Source: Sinorhizobium terangae (GTDB lineage Bacteria > Pseudomonadota > Alphaproteobacteria > Rhizobiales > Rhizobiaceae). From it: DNA of 64,000 nt. Positions 10,650 to 60,512 of this stretch are shown here, piece by piece; within the stretch, counting starts at the first letter, position 1, and each line of letters begins with the position of its first letter. The position numbers were made by a program, and so were the translations under genes. Below the pieces are notes generated by a model. That model searched no databases, had not been told where the DNA came from, and saw only the letters and a program-made list of their open reading frames with translations. The stretch lies in the NCBI RefSeq assembly GCF_009601505.1, contig NZ_WITC01000015.1, forward strand, positions 1 through 64,000, given 5' to 3'.

Positions 10650-11264
10650 ATGGGTCTGCAGGTTCTTTTTTTCTATCTCTTTGCCTTCATTGCGGTGGCA
10701 TCGGCATTCATGGTCATTGCATCGAAGAACCCGGTTTATTCGGTTCTGTTCCTGATCCTGACCTTCTTCAACTCGGCGGGGCTCTTCCTGCTGACGGGGG
10801 CCGAGTTCCTGGCAATGATCCTGCTCGTCGTCTATGTCGGCGCGGTGGCGGTTCTGTTCCTGTTCGTCGTGATGATGCTCGACATCGATTTCGCGGAGCT
10901 GCGCGCGGGTGTGCTTGAATATGCGCCGATCGGCGCTCTGATCGGGTTGATCCTTGCGGCCGAACTCATCATCGTCGTCGGCGGCACGACCTTCTCGCCG
11001 GAAATCGCCAAGGGTATCGCGATGCCGATTCCGCCGGTAAGCGAGCGGACCAATACGGCCGCACTCGGCGACGTTCTCTACACACATTACATCTACTTCT
11101 TCCAAATCGCGGGGCTCGTGCTGCTCGTCGCCATGATCGGCGCCATCGTGCTGACGCTGCGCCACCGCCAGAACATCAAGCGCCAGAGCATTCCGCGGCA
11201 GGTTGCCCGCGCACCCGAGACCGCTGTCGAGGTGATCACGGTCAAGCCGGGGCAGGGCATCTAA
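10650..11264 (+). CDS. nuoJ: NADH-quinone oxidoreductase subunit J
   Basis: Membrane subunit of complex I, 204 residues, about five transmembrane helices. The third helix contains the family block [19 protein letters not shown], which includes the pi-bulge helix implicated in coupling. The ATG at 10650 gives the normal N-terminus ([11 protein letters not shown]); the frame is open for another 33 codons upstream but that stretch shows no family similarity and contains the hairpin described for the gap. Confidence 0.95.
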
Positions 11265-23370: not shown

Positions 23371-24057
23371 ATGAATGCGCGTGTGGCACTGCAGCTCTCC
23401 GGCATCGAGCGGCACTATGGCGAGGGCGACACCTACCTCCCGATTCTCAAGGGCGTCGATTTCACGCTGCGAAGCGGTGAGACCGTCGCGCTCGTGGCGC
23501 CTTCGGGAACCGGCAAGTCGACGCTCTTGCATGTCGCGGGCCTGCTCGAACATCCGGACGCGGGCGAAGTCGTCGTGAATGGACTGGCTTGCAACGGGCT
23601 CAGCGATGATCGGCGCACGGCTATCCGGCGAAAGGAAATCGGCTTCGTCTATCAGTTCCATCACCTTCTGCCGGAATTTTCCGCGCTGGAAAACATCATG
23701 ATGCCGCAACTGATCGCCGGCCTTCCGAAGGCAGAAGCGGCGGAGAGAGCCGCCGCTTTGCTCGACTATATGCGCATCGGCCACCGTGGCAGCCATAGGC
23801 CGGCTGAGCTTTCGGGCGGCGAGCAGCAGCGCGTCGCCATCGCCCGTGCTGTGGCCAATGCGCCGCTCGTTCTGCTGGCCGATGAGCCGACCGGCAATCT
23901 CGATCCCGAGACCGCCGGCTATGTGTTCGAGGCGATGGAGGCACTGGCACGCCAGTCGGGCCTTGCCGCACTGATTGCGACGCACAATCATGAACTCGCC
24001 TCCCTGATGGATCGCCGTGTGACGATCGAGGACGGGAAGGTCGTCGAACTGAAGTAG
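23371..24057 (+). CDS. lolD: Lipoprotein-releasing system ATP-binding protein
   Basis: ATPase of the Lol exporter, 228 residues. Walker A is APSGTGKST at 43-51, with alanine in the first position where glycine is usual. The signature [14 protein letters not shown], Walker [14 protein letters not shown] and the switch histidine in ATHNHE are all intact. It lies 18 bases after the permease gene and surely pairs with it. Confidence 0.94.
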
Positions 24058-24172: not shown

Positions 24173-24640
24173 TCAAGGAACGATGAGCCCGCCGCGATAA
24201 TCGAGCTCATAGGCCTCTTCGCCATCGACAAAGATGACCTCGCGTCCGGAAAAATGATCGGTCGCCCCGCGGCTGCTGTCGACGTAACAACCGTAGGCGT
24301 GCTGATATCGCGTGCCGCCGAGGAAATGGCGCCTGTCGCGGTACATGGTCTGCAGTGCAGTTTTGATGACGGCGCCGGCTCGTTCCGCGTCGATTAGGTC
24401 CGGACGGATGATTCGACCGAAATAATTCATCGCCCAGCGCGGGTTGCCTCCGTGCCAGACGGTTTCCTGGCCGGCAAAATCCGTTCCGCCGAAATAGCTG
24501 TCGAGATAGCTCCACGCACCGCGCTGGTGACCGATATCGCGTGAGCCGGGTCTGCAGGCAGGGAGCGCCGCGCCGCCGCCGACATAGGTTCTCGATTTCG
24601 CCTCGACGATGAAGTCGGTGAGTTCCTCGATGCTGAACAT
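24173..24640 (-). CDS. DUF5680-type protein, probably SOS-controlled
   Basis: A 155-residue soluble protein starting MFSIEELTDFIVEAKSRTY. It has the block GGGAALPACRPGSRDI, then SYLDSYFGGTDFAGQETVW and the aromatic-rich WHGGNPRWAMNYFGRI. This matches my memory of the DUF5680 family, which has no known function. The start at 24640 has GGGAGGAC just upstream. A LexA-type site (GTTC-N7-GTTC read on this strand) lies at 24695-24709, 55 bases before the start, so induction by DNA damage is inferred. Confidence 0.8.
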   Translation of the reverse strand: MFSIEELTDFIVEAKSRTYVGGGAALPACRPGSRDIGHQRGAWSYLDSYFGGTDFAGQETVWHGGNPRWAMNYFGRIIRPDLIDAERAGAVIKTALQTMYRDRRHFLGGTRYQHAYGCYVDSSRGATDHFSGREVIFVDGEEAYELDYRGGLIVP

Positions 24641-24694
24641 GAGCGTCCTCCCATTTTCGCCAGCGAGGATGCCGTAACATCGCCAGCTTGTAAA

Positions 24695-24709
24695 GAACAA
24701 AAAGGGAAC
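24695..24709 (-). promoter_or_regulatory. LexA (SOS) box for the DUF5680 gene
   Basis: GAAC-aaaaagg-GAAC on the plus strand, i.e. GTTC-N7-GTTC on the minus strand, the exact alphaproteobacterial LexA consensus. It lies 55 bases before the start of the DUF5680 gene. Confidence 0.75.
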
Positions 24710-24839
24710 AAACGGTGCCGACCTCCGAACTGCCTGCGGTTTGGTTTGGATCTTGGGAGTTGCAATCTGGTGCCCAGCCACACGCGTTAACCATGAACTT
24801 TGAATTACGGGATCTTTTATTCAGGCTTGCTTGACTTCG

Positions 24840-24854
24840 GAACAAAAAAAGAAC
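24840..24854 (+). promoter_or_regulatory. LexA (SOS) box for the 28-residue micropeptide
   Basis: GAAC-aaaaaaa-GAAC, again the reverse complement of GTTC-N7-GTTC. It overlaps a TTGACT (24831-24836) that may be the -35 region and ends 33 bases before the micropeptide ATG, a position suited to repression. Confidence 0.75.
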
Positions 24855-24887
24855 AAAAGAAAAACAATAGCGGAAAGGAGCCATATT

Positions 24888-24974
24888 ATGACTGATTTCG
24901 TTCGTGATCTCGCCGCCTTCGCCTCCATGAGCCTGTTCATCGCCAGCATTTCAGTGATTGCGCTCGGATTCTGA
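24888..24974 (+). CDS. 28-residue SOS-controlled membrane micropeptide (SidA-like?)
   Basis: A 28-codon frame with AAAGGAG 8 bases before the ATG. The first eight residues (MTDFVRDL) are polar and charged; residues 9-28 form one continuous hydrophobic segment ending in GF at the stop, so it is a predicted single-span inner-membrane peptide. A consensus LexA box lies directly upstream. Size, topology and control resemble SidA of Caulobacter, a 29-residue SOS-induced division inhibitor that acts on FtsW/FtsN, but I cannot show sequence homology. It precedes dnaE by 159 bases and could share its transcript. Confidence 0.6.
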   Translation: MTDFVRDLAAFASMSLFIASISVIALGF

Positions 24975-25133
24975 TCCTTCTGCGCTGGTGCGGCTTCGCA
25001 TGGCGTGGCCGCGTCGGACCTGCGCTGCCTCGGATGCAATGTTGAAAAAAGACGGTGGCTCCGGCCGTTGTGCTGGACATCAAGCACCGGAAACGGGATA
25101 TCCTCTGCTCCGAACGGGAATCGGAGTGCAACG

Positions 25134-28628
<3,495 letters not shown>

Positions 28629-31359: not shown

Positions 31360-31374
31360 GAACAAATGTTGAAC
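31360..31374 (-). promoter_or_regulatory. LexA (SOS) box at dinB
   Basis: GAAC-aaatgtt-GAAC, reverse complement of GTTC-N7-GTTC. It starts only 6 bases upstream of the dinB start codon, so LexA would sit over the transcription start or 5' leader. The GNAT gene that starts at 31430 on the other strand may share the region. Confidence 0.8.
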
Positions 31375-44679: not shown

Positions 44680-45290
44680 TATCCCTTTTCCCCGATCCGG
44701 CTTTCCGTGCCGCTAAGCAGTCGCTGGATGTTGGCACGATGCTTGATCCAGGTGATGACGGTCATGATAGCGAACAGCAGTGCCACTTTTCCATACCCGG
44801 TCGCATAAAGCGCAACGGGCACGAGGGCTGTCGCTGTGAGGGCGCTCAGCGACGAGTAACGCGTGATCTTGGCCATGGCGAGCCAGATTGCACCGAAGAC
44901 GAGCACCATTACCGGTGCAAGGCCCAGCAACACGCCGATATAGGTTGCAACACCCTTGCCGCCCTTGAACGAGAGCCAGACCGGATAGAGATGTCCGAGG
45001 AAAGCGGCGAGGCCCGCGGCAAGGCCAGCCTCGATGCCCCACCGAGAGGCGATGGCGGCAGCGGCTGTGCCCTTGAGCGCATCGAGGAGGAGGGTCGCCG
45101 CGGCAAGCTTCTTGTTGCCGGTTCGAAGTACGTTCGTGGCGCCGATGTTGCCCGAGCCTATCTTGCGGACGTCACCGAGGCCTGCCATGCGCGTAAGAAT
45201 GAGGCCGAAGGGGATCGACCCCAGAAGATAGCCGAAGACGAGACATGCGAACGTCGCGGGCAGCCCGAGCTGCCAGGATAATAACTCCAC
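44679..45290 (-). CDS. plsY: Glycerol-3-phosphate acyltransferase PlsY
   Basis: Inner-membrane enzyme that acylates glycerol-3-phosphate with acyl-phosphate, the first step of phospholipid synthesis. 203 residues with five hydrophobic helices. The three cytoplasmic motifs are visible: [14 protein letters not shown], then [16 protein letters not shown], then [18 protein letters not shown]. It follows the dihydroorotase-like gene and overlaps dprA. Confidence 0.95.
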
Positions 45291-58466: not shown

Positions 58467-60512
58467 CTACGGTAAAAGAAGAACAGCGGTCCTGATGGCC
58501 CGAAGGAAGTCGATACTGAGCGTCGACACATCGTCGCTGCTTGCCGCAGCGGTGTCGGCATAGGTGAAGTCATAGTACCATTCCGACTTGCGGTCGCTGT
58601 CGGCAACGGCTTGGAGATAGGCGCTAATCGCTTCAGCGGGCACGCGTTCTTCCAGTGTTCGAAAGCTCCATTCCAGTTCGAGACCAGTCGGAAGGGGCGA
58701 CCCCCTCAGTTTGAGTGAGAAGTGCGGGTTCTCGACGTCCGGCCTTTCCGGCGGGGAGAATTGGGACTTGAGGTTGGTCACGGTGACCTTGTGGCTCTTG
58801 TAGACCGGAGATCCAAGCGCGATCGGTCCGGTACGTCCAACCGCGGTCGGTGCCGGCATGCCGCCGATGCCGATATCTGCCCGCAACGGAAAATTCTTGG
58901 CGAGGTCATTGGCGAGGAGAGCCTCGGAGGGAAGTTCGTAAGCCTCCTTTGTCGTCAGAACATTGAGGTCACGGTCATCTGCGGTTTCGAGCATCGCCGT
59001 GCTTTTGATGCCCGGATACTGCCGGCTGTAGTATTGAATGTAGTCGTCGGCGAGCTTGGCTTTCGATGCATGTGCAAGCCTGCGGCGCATCCGATCGGCA
59101 TCAGCGTTGCGGTAGATCGTGTTTACGGTGAGCACCAAGGGTTCGCCATCGCGCCTCGGGAACGCAAACCGTTCCGCGACCGACTGGGTCGGCTCCAACA
59201 GTTCCTTCACCGGAAGTTTCTCGATCGCGGCTCCAGAAGCAACCAGCGGCAATGCAAAGCCATAATCGGGCGGAACAATGTTCGCCGCGCGTCCGCCCTG
59301 CAGGTAGTCGGTCGCGTCGAGCCACCAGACCCGTTCGCCTATCTTCGCTTTGACGATCACATGGTCGAAAGCCTGAAGCCCAGGAACGGCATGTTCAAGC
59401 GCCCTGCCTTCATCGATGTCAGTGAGAGCCGCCTCGGCTTCGATACCCAGCCGCCGCAAGGCTGAAACGAGGAGCAGCGCTTTGTCCTTGCAATCGCCGA
59501 AGCCGCTGGCCAGTACCGCTTCAGGATGGCGTGGCACATATGAGCCCGCTCCCATCGACAGGCTGACATAGCGGATCTCGTCCTGGACTAGTCGCAATGC
59601 GGCGATGAGGCGATCCTCGCGTGCACCATGGCGGGCTTCGATTTCAGCGAGCTTGGCCTCGAAATCGGCTGGAAAGCTCTCCGTCGGTTGATAGAAAGGA
59701 AGGACGGCATCTACGACGGGCTGCCAGTCGAACTCTGAGGATATTTCAGCGAAGCCGAAATTAGGATAGTCGACCGGCAGATTGTCCTGGGGTTTCACTG
59801 GCGCAGGATTGGCCGTTTCCCATAGATAGGACGTTTCGCCCCCGGACTGTGTGACCCTTGGCTTCAGCCCTGTCCTGACCGCGCGTATGTTGAGCGGCTT
59901 TTCTGTCGGCCAGATGATCCGTTCCCTTGTGAGGGCGACGGGCTCGCCCCATTCAGCCTGGAAGCGAGTGTACAGCAGATCCTTCGCCACCGTCGGGGTG
60001 ACGTCATAGGTTGTGGAATAGTCCACGATATCGCCGACGCGCACATCGCTGAGATCGACATGCGCCGTGAGGCGGCCGTCAAAAATACCTCTTTCGGAAT
60101 CCGTCTCCCGGCGAAATATCTCGAACTTAGCGTCACCGAGCTTGTCGATGACAACTCCGTCTCTGATGATCATTAGCCGGTTGAAGGACAGCCTCTCGCG
60201 CGAAGGATCGAATTCTATGTCCAGCCTTGCTCCGCTTTCCAGACCGGCCCGGTCGGTCACTTTATAAACCAGGCGCCCGAATATCGCGTACCCGCCGTTT
60301 CTATGCCGAATCTGCGTATCCGTCAGGAGGAAAGCGATGCCATTCCTGATCTCGGCGCTGCGTGCCGGATCGAGTTCAGGAATGCCGACGATTTCCACCC
60401 AATTTTCGGCTGGCGTCTTGCGCACTTGTTCGTCCGCCCTGGCCGTAAAACCCGACCCCAGCAGCATCAAGACGAGAGCAAGAAGAAAAACGAACGAGCT
60501 GCGACGCTCCAT
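58467..60512 (-). CDS. Exported DUF3857/transglutaminase-like protein
   Basis: A 681-residue protein with a signal peptide (MERRSSFVFLLALVLMLLGS, then GFTARA). An N-terminal DUF3857 domain follows (IEFDPSRERLSFNRLMIIRDG and SDVRVGDIVDYSTTYD). A transglutaminase core has the Cys in ASGFGDCKDKALLLVSALRR, His in GLQAFDHVIVKAK and Asp in WWLDATDYL. A C-terminal beta-rich domain ends the protein. The triad looks intact; the substrate is unknown and it is probably periplasmic. The ATG at 60512 is chosen because it starts the signal peptide; 60554 is an alternative. The gene is flanked by imperfect direct repeats. Confidence 0.85.
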   Translation of the reverse strand: MERRSSFVFLLALVLMLLGSGFTARADEQVRKTPAENWVEIVGIPELDPARSAEIRNGIAFLLTDTQIRHRNGGYAIFGRLVYKVTDRAGLESGARLDIEFDPSRERLSFNRLMIIRDGVVIDKLGDAKFEIFRRETDSERGIFDGRLTAHVDLSDVRVGDIVDYSTTYDVTPTVAKDLLYTRFQAEWGEPVALTRERIIWPTEKPLNIRAVRTGLKPRVTQSGGETSYLWETANPAPVKPQDNLPVDYPNFGFAEISSEFDWQPVVDAVLPFYQPTESFPADFEAKLAEIEARHGAREDRLIAALRLVQDEIRYVSLSMGAGSYVPRHPEAVLASGFGDCKDKALLLVSALRRLGIEAEAALTDIDEGRALEHAVPGLQAFDHVIVKAKIGERVWWLDATDYLQGGRAANIVPPDYGFALPLVASGAAIEKLPVKELLEPTQSVAERFAFPRRDGEPLVLTVNTIYRNADADRMRRRLAHASKAKLADDYIQYYSRQYPGIKSTAMLETADDRDLNVLTTKEAYELPSEALLANDLAKNFPLRADIGIGGMPAPTAVGRTGPIALGSPVYKSHKVTVTNLKSQFSPPERPDVENPHFSLKLRGSPLPTGLELEWSFRTLEERVPAEAISAYLQAVADSDRKSEWYYDFTYADTAAASSDDVSTLSIDFLRAIRTAVLLLP

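Follow-up and report, generated by a model that had tools for sequence, protein, structure and literature searches.

A conserved 28-codon gene behind a LexA box upstream of dnaE1 in Sinorhizobium terangae, most probably a divergent relative of the Caulobacter division inhibitor SidA

Upstream of dnaE1 in Sinorhizobium terangae, a LexA box is followed by a reading frame of only 28 codons that ends in a hydrophobic span. The question raised by this locus is whether so short a frame is a gene and, if so, what its product does when the SOS response is switched on. The features that bear on this question, given in coordinates of the window (the whole 64-kb stretch of DNA that was analysed), are as follows:

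23371..24057, plus strand: lolD-like ABC transporter ATPase (Pfam ABC_tran), the usual upstream neighbour
24173-24640, minus strand: DUF5680 gene, divergent, between the lolD-like gene and the 28-codon frame
24831..24836, plus strand: -35-like hexamer TTGACT, directly 5′ of the LexA box
24840..24854, minus strand: LexA (SOS) box GAACAAAAAAAGAAC, an exact match to GTTC-N7-GTTC on the minus strand
24874..24880, plus strand: Shine-Dalgarno sequence AAAGGAG, 7 nt 5′ of the ATG
24888..24974, plus strand: 28-codon gene (ATG at 24888, stop codon ending at 24974), product MTDFVRDLAAFASMSLFIASISVIALGF
25134..28628, plus strand: dnaE1, replicative DNA polymerase III alpha subunit (Pfam DNA_pol3_alpha, finger and PHP), 1164 aa from its ATG start

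The first-pass annotation of the window had described a consensus LexA site (GTTC-N7-GTTC in reverse) at 24840-24854, then AAAGGAG and a 28-codon frame with a charged head and a hydrophobic span, and each of these elements was recovered at its place, the site as an exact match. The feature as originally drawn began at 24831; an element is indeed present there, namely the TTGACT hexamer, but the gene itself starts at 24888. The LexA box consensus for Caulobacter is tabulated in PMC9578287, and exact alphaproteobacterial boxes number six in the 64-kb window vs. 2.2 expected, a count that was reached in one of 100 shuffles. The box and the ribosome-binding site are separated by a gap of ~20 nt, and a similar purine-rich stretch occupies the Shine-Dalgarno position in those upstream sequences of relatives that were inspected. 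TTGAC occurs 55-67 nt upstream of the ATG in 80 of 80 loci (the best 80 of 246 confirmed matches). Since a simple consensus scan for promoters and terminators returned no sigma-70 promoter at 24600-25200, only the -35-like hexamer is counted as seen; the scan returned no terminator in this interval, and there was no Rfam match at 24600-25200 either. The product, MTDFVRDLAAFASMSLFIASISVIALGF, consists of a short charged head and a single hydrophobic span, and its best 19-residue hydropathy window scores 2.23 vs. 2.08 for SidA. Frames of 20-50 codons have 1371 start positions in the window, 30 of them strongly hydrophobic and one of these 30 with a ribosome-binding-like site by our own pattern. 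The frame at 24888-24974 is the only strongly hydrophobic short frame of the window with a LexA box 25-70 nt upstream. It stands ~160 nt upstream of dnaE, and its gene occurs in one copy in the S. terangae genome.

The 28-codon frame is a real gene. Two overlapping sets of loci, 55 from the Rhizobiaceae search sets and 80 representing the best of 246 confirmed matches, were merged into 104 distinct loci, the window included, which encode 64 distinct peptides. Conservation of box and frame upstream of dnaE, with silent-site bias and free of frameshifts or stops in relatives, had been put forward in the first-pass annotation as the way to check the gene, and the comparison speaks for it on all of these counts. 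All 28 codons are kept in 104 of 104 distinct loci, a set found by similarity, in which a broken copy would be missed. An exact LexA box lies within 100 nt upstream in 102 of the 104 distinct loci; in 78 of 80 (best 80 of 246) its distance from the ATG is 36-58 nt, and 54 of the 55 from the Rhizobiaceae search sets have one within 200 nt upstream. Because box and frame are conserved across loci, their combination goes beyond chance. Over 30 Sinorhizobium loci the frame has a pN/pS ratio of 0.117, and over the 80 loci one of 0.296, whereas the two other forward frames in the same 30 Sinorhizobium loci gave 2.8 and 12.3. Similarly, ungapped pairwise identity is 0.872 inside the frame vs. 0.335 in the 84 nt that lie 3′ of it. 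The claim that the peptide is encoded beside dnaE also holds, with dnaE directly downstream of the frame in 80 of 80 loci (again the best 80 of 246), at a distance that varies among them. A second, overlapping box (GAAC-N7-GAAC-N7-GAAC) is found in 31 of the 80. Two loci, L111 and L049 (the latter being the same locus as L113), have an intact frame and have lost the exact LexA box.

The divergent DUF5680 gene has a LexA box of its own at 24695-24709. The gene or a piece of it is carried by 27 of the 80 loci; a box precedes it in all 26 loci with a full-length start, and in 25 of these 26 GTTC-N7-GTTC lies 67-76 nt before the gene start. It looks like an uncharacterised SOS gene. Four more exact GTTC-N7-GTTC sites occur in the window, at 10851-10865, 31360-31374, 45121-45135, and 58646-58660.

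The occurrence of the peptide was then followed outward from the genus. A peptide search gave matches in 37 of 60 near genomes, including all but one of the genus's other 31 genomes, and a single-peptide search gave matches in 116 of 297 Rhizobiaceae genomes at E ≤ 0.1, the other 181 having none. Among the best 80 of 246 confirmed matches, relatives were found in Sinorhizobium/Ensifer, Rhizobium, Pararhizobium, Shinella, Mycoplana, and Agrobacterium. One Rhizobiaceae genus (g97) had the frame in two of eight genomes by profile search, with a chance match in one and no match in five. Three profiles were used: A1, from 24 Rhizobiaceae peptides; A2, from Hyphomicrobiales; and A3, from 15 Caulobacteraceae frames. 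When the order was searched with A1, 122 of 347 genomes matched at E ≤ 0.5, most of them by chance as judged from context; at E ≤ 0.01 the number fell to 20 of 347, including an apparently false match in G561. Among 24 loci from other families of the order (L141-L164), dnaE lies downstream in 20, and an exact LexA box was present in 13 of the first fifteen. Those with both box and dnaE encode, as a rule, 28-32 residues with a common M-T-x-x-x-R/K-D-x-A-A and a central F. A class-wide search with the A2 profile matched 74 of 387 genomes at E ≤ 0.3; since these matches were mostly due to chance by inspection, the survey of the class went by the position of dnaE instead. From the 316 of 387 genomes with a dnaE match, 40 dnaE-upstream stretches were picked by hand, four inside the order and 36 outside it. 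In 14 of the 40, 11 of them outside the order, a short hydrophobic frame follows an exact box, and one more has a one-mismatch box with a frame; the combination was absent from 25 of these 40 hand-picked stretches. Resemblance to the peptide family is poor in two of the class stretches (L197 and L208). In L214 and L227-L229 (and L200), all outside the order, the same box and span stand before dnaE with a longer head (44-47 residues). A lolD-like ATPase match lies upstream in 76 of the 80 loci (best 80 of 246) and in many other alphaproteobacterial loci.

In two divergent Rhizobiaceae genomes, G564 and G581 (loci L267 and L268), which may belong to Rhizobium sensu stricto, the LexA box is retained together with a 28-codon frame for the peptide MTDLIQDVASLVCMSAFLVSMAMWIGAM. 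Their frames stand behind an FtsX-like permease gene, in G564 with a convergent lipB next, and no dnaE occurs in the ~760-870 nt read behind the frames of these two genomes. Within the stretch read, the peptide gene of G564 and G581 has separated from the polymerase gene.

A peptide of this kind is known from Caulobacter crescentus, where dnaE is CC1926 and lexA CC1902 (PMC1839093), lexA also appears as CCNA_01979 (PMC11535069), and sidA is CCNA_02004 (PMC11034885). These locus tags suggested that sidA lies beside dnaE in Caulobacter. Genomes of Caulobacteraceae were located with a PopZ sequence taken to be that of C. crescentus. The PopZ of one genome, G1113, is 100% identical to this sequence over 177 aa. 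Moreover, the FtsW of G1113 carries A31, F145, and A246, matching the numbering in the literature (PMC4211646). Upstream of its dnaE, one exact and two one-mismatch LexA boxes are followed by a 29-codon frame whose product matches the NCBIfam SidA model NF033228 from end to end (E 2e-20, 72.4 bits, cut-off 35). Because the model matches this frame, SidA is, as judged by sequence, the dnaE-upstream peptide of Caulobacter. In the Caulobacteraceae sample (30 loci from 43 genomes searched), 27 of 30 loci have a comparable frame and a box with at most one mismatch, and some of these 27 lack an exact box; the exceptions are L250, which could not be oriented by motif, and L255 and L264, which have no frame. 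All 15 aligned Caulobacteraceae frames match NF033228 at E ≤ 10, and W19-M20 is invariant among them.

The rhizobial peptide had originally been called a functional analogue of SidA. The likeness stands, but an orthologue is the most probable reading, given the shared position before dnaE, the LexA-box control, the length and a gap-free profile alignment. The A2 alignment was built before any Caulobacter sequence was seen, and hhalign of A2 against A3 gave 82% and an E-value of 1.1e-5 (88% and 3.5e-6 in a rerun); for A1 against A3 it gave 65% and 6.2e-5 (68% and about 5e-5 in a rerun). When columns were shuffled 200 times, within head and span separately, none of the 200 shuffles did as well, for A1 as for A2, the margin for A1 being small (score 20.2 vs. 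19.5 for the best shuffle). Both alignments run free of gaps from M1 over residues 1-20, in a register shared by rhizobial peptide and SidA at M1, R6, D/E7, A10, F/L11, S13, and F17. Additionally, an HMM of A2 placed the SidA frame first among the 15-42 short frames of each locus in 27 of 30 Caulobacteraceae loci, and an HMM of A1 did so in 25 of 30 by our count. The E-values of the A2 HMM are weak, 0.0004 at best in Caulobacteraceae and 2.1 for C. crescentus SidA itself. We regard homology between the 28-residue peptide and SidA as highly probable. Both are encoded immediately before dnaE, preceded by LexA or LexA-like boxes, and both have 28-29 residues, with a short charged head and one hydrophobic span. 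They are unlike in that the N-terminal head of the window peptide is net acidic and that of SidA basic; moreover, the window peptide has 6 of 28 residues in common with C. crescentus SidA, is without W19-M20, and lies outside NF033228, scoring below its cut-off of 35 bits and finding no NCBIfam match at E ≤ 10. The same shortfall is seen within Caulobacteraceae, where one divergent dnaE-upstream frame reaches 22.2 bits vs. the required 35. Since the window peptide has no NF033228 match, we place it among the homologues of SidA and not within the NCBIfam equivalog itself.

In Caulobacter, the target of SidA is FtsW (PMC4211646), the filamentation of a lexA deletion mutant is due to sidA (PMC12700426), and a low-confidence AlphaFold 3 model places SidA on helix 7 of FtsW (PMC13396833). 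The first-pass annotation had SidA acting through FtsW and FtsN; in PMC4211646, FtsW is the target of SidA and FtsN the partner of DidA. By homology with SidA, we think it likely that the rhizobial peptide serves as an SOS-induced inner-membrane inhibitor of division. DNA damage would load RecA, upon which LexA would cleave itself and leave the box at 24840-24854; the box is there to be seen and the induction is predicted from it. The resulting transcript would be short, with a strong ribosome-binding site, and might read on into dnaE; from it, the 28-residue peptide would be translated. The peptide is predicted to enter the inner membrane by its single hydrophobic span. There, if it behaves as Caulobacter SidA does, it would contact FtsW of the septal FtsW/FtsI/FtsN complex, and final constriction would be held back until repair is finished and LexA returns. 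The putative target is available, in that the whole S. terangae genome has one match to the SEDS (FtsW/RodA) family, which is of the FtsW type by alignment; the Caulobacter reference for this alignment was FtsW, the stronger Caulobacter SEDS match being RodA. Residues F145 and A246 of Caulobacter FtsW are conserved in the S. terangae protein and A31 is replaced by T. Changes at F145 and A246 suppress both SidA and DidA in Caulobacter, and A31 is a suppressor site specific to SidA (PMC4211646). Rhizobiales are reported to be without homologues of the canonical Rod complex, and the single FtsW/RodA-family match agrees with that report (PMC8546619).

The same facts could be read as a shift of target: a SidA-homologous SOS membrane peptide whose point of attack has moved in rhizobia, for example to the polar growth machinery, as might be proposed because rhizobia grow from one pole, without a Rod system. 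Such a shift would fit the single SEDS match in the genome together with the reported lack of a canonical Rod complex (PMC8546619), as well as the differences from Caulobacter at FtsW position 31 and in the C-terminal part of the peptide. It is nevertheless an unlikely one, in that the aligned part of the peptide (residues 1-20) is common to both groups and FtsW keeps F145 and A246. A single hydrophobic span under LexA control would also suit an SOS membrane peptide like TisB or DinQ that would depolarise the cell or slow it down, perhaps paired with an antisense RNA, in place of acting on the divisome. Peptides of the TisB/DinQ type are of the same size class as the 28-residue peptide. E. coli DinQ, for one, is an SOS-regulated toxic single-span peptide (PMC3567139). 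Yet none of 22 A2 members matched a Pfam toxin family at E ≤ 10, the only Pfam match among them at that threshold being MrpF_PhaF for one member (E 0.028), and on this result a type I toxin peptide was rejected as first choice. The gene also occurs once in the S. terangae genome and keeps a fixed chromosomal place, unlike type I toxins with their typically scattered, multi-copy habit, and both the ~20 nt between box and ribosome-binding site and the empty Rfam result at 24600-25200 speak against this explanation, which we consider improbable.

The inhibitor reading must also be weighed against a regulatory role of the frame as a uORF or leader peptide of dnaE1, where translation would control dnaE and the peptide itself would be inert. 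The distance of ~160 nt to dnaE in the window would allow this, and a Ribo-seq paper on S. meliloti puts a short frame, sORF25, in the dnaE1 5′-UTR and offers the uORF idea for that class of sORFs (PMC10117765). Selection on the amino acids argues otherwise, since pN/pS is 0.117 and pairwise identity, 0.872 within the frame, drops to 0.335 over the next 84 nt; furthermore, the distance between frame and dnaE varies, G564 and G581 (two genomes only) retain both box and frame but show no dnaE in the sequence read, and Caulobacter SidA acts as a protein. We thus hold a uORF role to be doubtful at best, and a pure uORF was rejected on amino-acid selection and the two dnaE-less loci. Finally, that the frame is a chance ORF, as its very small size might suggest, is practically out of the question and was rejected on the constant length of 28 codons across all 104 distinct loci, its pN/pS well below 1 and its position, which relatives share in other families of the order.

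If the peptide is an SOS-induced inhibitor of division, its distribution invites a broader proposal: SidA would be an SOS division brake that much of the Alphaproteobacteria inherited from a common ancestor and have retained between lolD and dnaE1 ever since, and derepression of LexA would yield both the inhibitor and read-through polymerase from one promoter. We favour this scenario, if only by a little. How rhizobia and their relatives stop division upon DNA damage has no named answer in the literature searched, and a conserved SidA homologue before dnaE provides a concrete candidate gene for damage-induced division arrest in rhizobia. Homology to SidA would also explain a Ribo-seq-detected sORF that had been put down as a possible uORF. 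What has been a paradigm of one species would become comparative, with the same brake in Caulobacter and in pole-growing cells with a single SEDS match. This would suggest a wider distribution of the brake than its name conveys, and that the SOS response and the expression of the replicative polymerase are physically linked.

SidA itself was already known, as was a translated sORF before S. meliloti dnaE1 (PMC10117765). What is new, most probably and as far as sequence comparison can tell, is a divergent SidA homologue in rhizobia and its joining to the dnaE-upstream sORF. The frame had been described as too short for standard annotation; it does lie outside the NCBIfam SidA model, but it is not wholly unknown, given that translated sORF25 is in print (PMC10117765). 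In the open-licence literature, a set that does not include the original 2011 SidA paper, we found no report of SidA outside Caulobacter or of a link between SidA and sORF25, and four peptide strings of the family had no occurrence there. Where the word turned up in two papers on rhizobia or Brucella, it stood for Sidak and for a Spanish acronym. The sORF25 of S. meliloti 2011 is like the gene described here in being a translated short frame in the dnaE1 5′-UTR, and it is very likely the S. meliloti copy of the 28-codon gene. Its authors offered a possible uORF role, whereas the rhizobial peptide is read here as a SidA-like inhibitor; SidA and LexA are mentioned nowhere in the main text of their paper (PMC10117765). 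The passages on its translation report minimal medium and name no damaging agent (PMC10117765), and translation without damage is unexpected for an inhibitor under tight repression.

Beyond the Alphaproteobacteria, the nearest counterparts in kind are YneA of Bacillus subtilis and SosA of Staphylococcus aureus. We know of no sequence relation between either of them and the rhizobial peptide. They are alike in being SOS-induced membrane inhibitors of division (PMC13396833; for SosA, PMC6851548). FtsW is the target of YneA, and in AlphaFold 3 models of low confidence YneA, SosA, ChiZ, and SidA are all placed on FtsW (PMC13396833). In contrast to YneA and SosA, the modelled SidA sits on the opposite side of FtsW helix 7 (PMC13396833). 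Within Caulobacter, DidA offers a further parallel as a damage-induced, single-span division inhibitor, and it differs from the rhizobial peptide in being longer (71 aa), independent of the SOS response and active through FtsN (PMC4211646).
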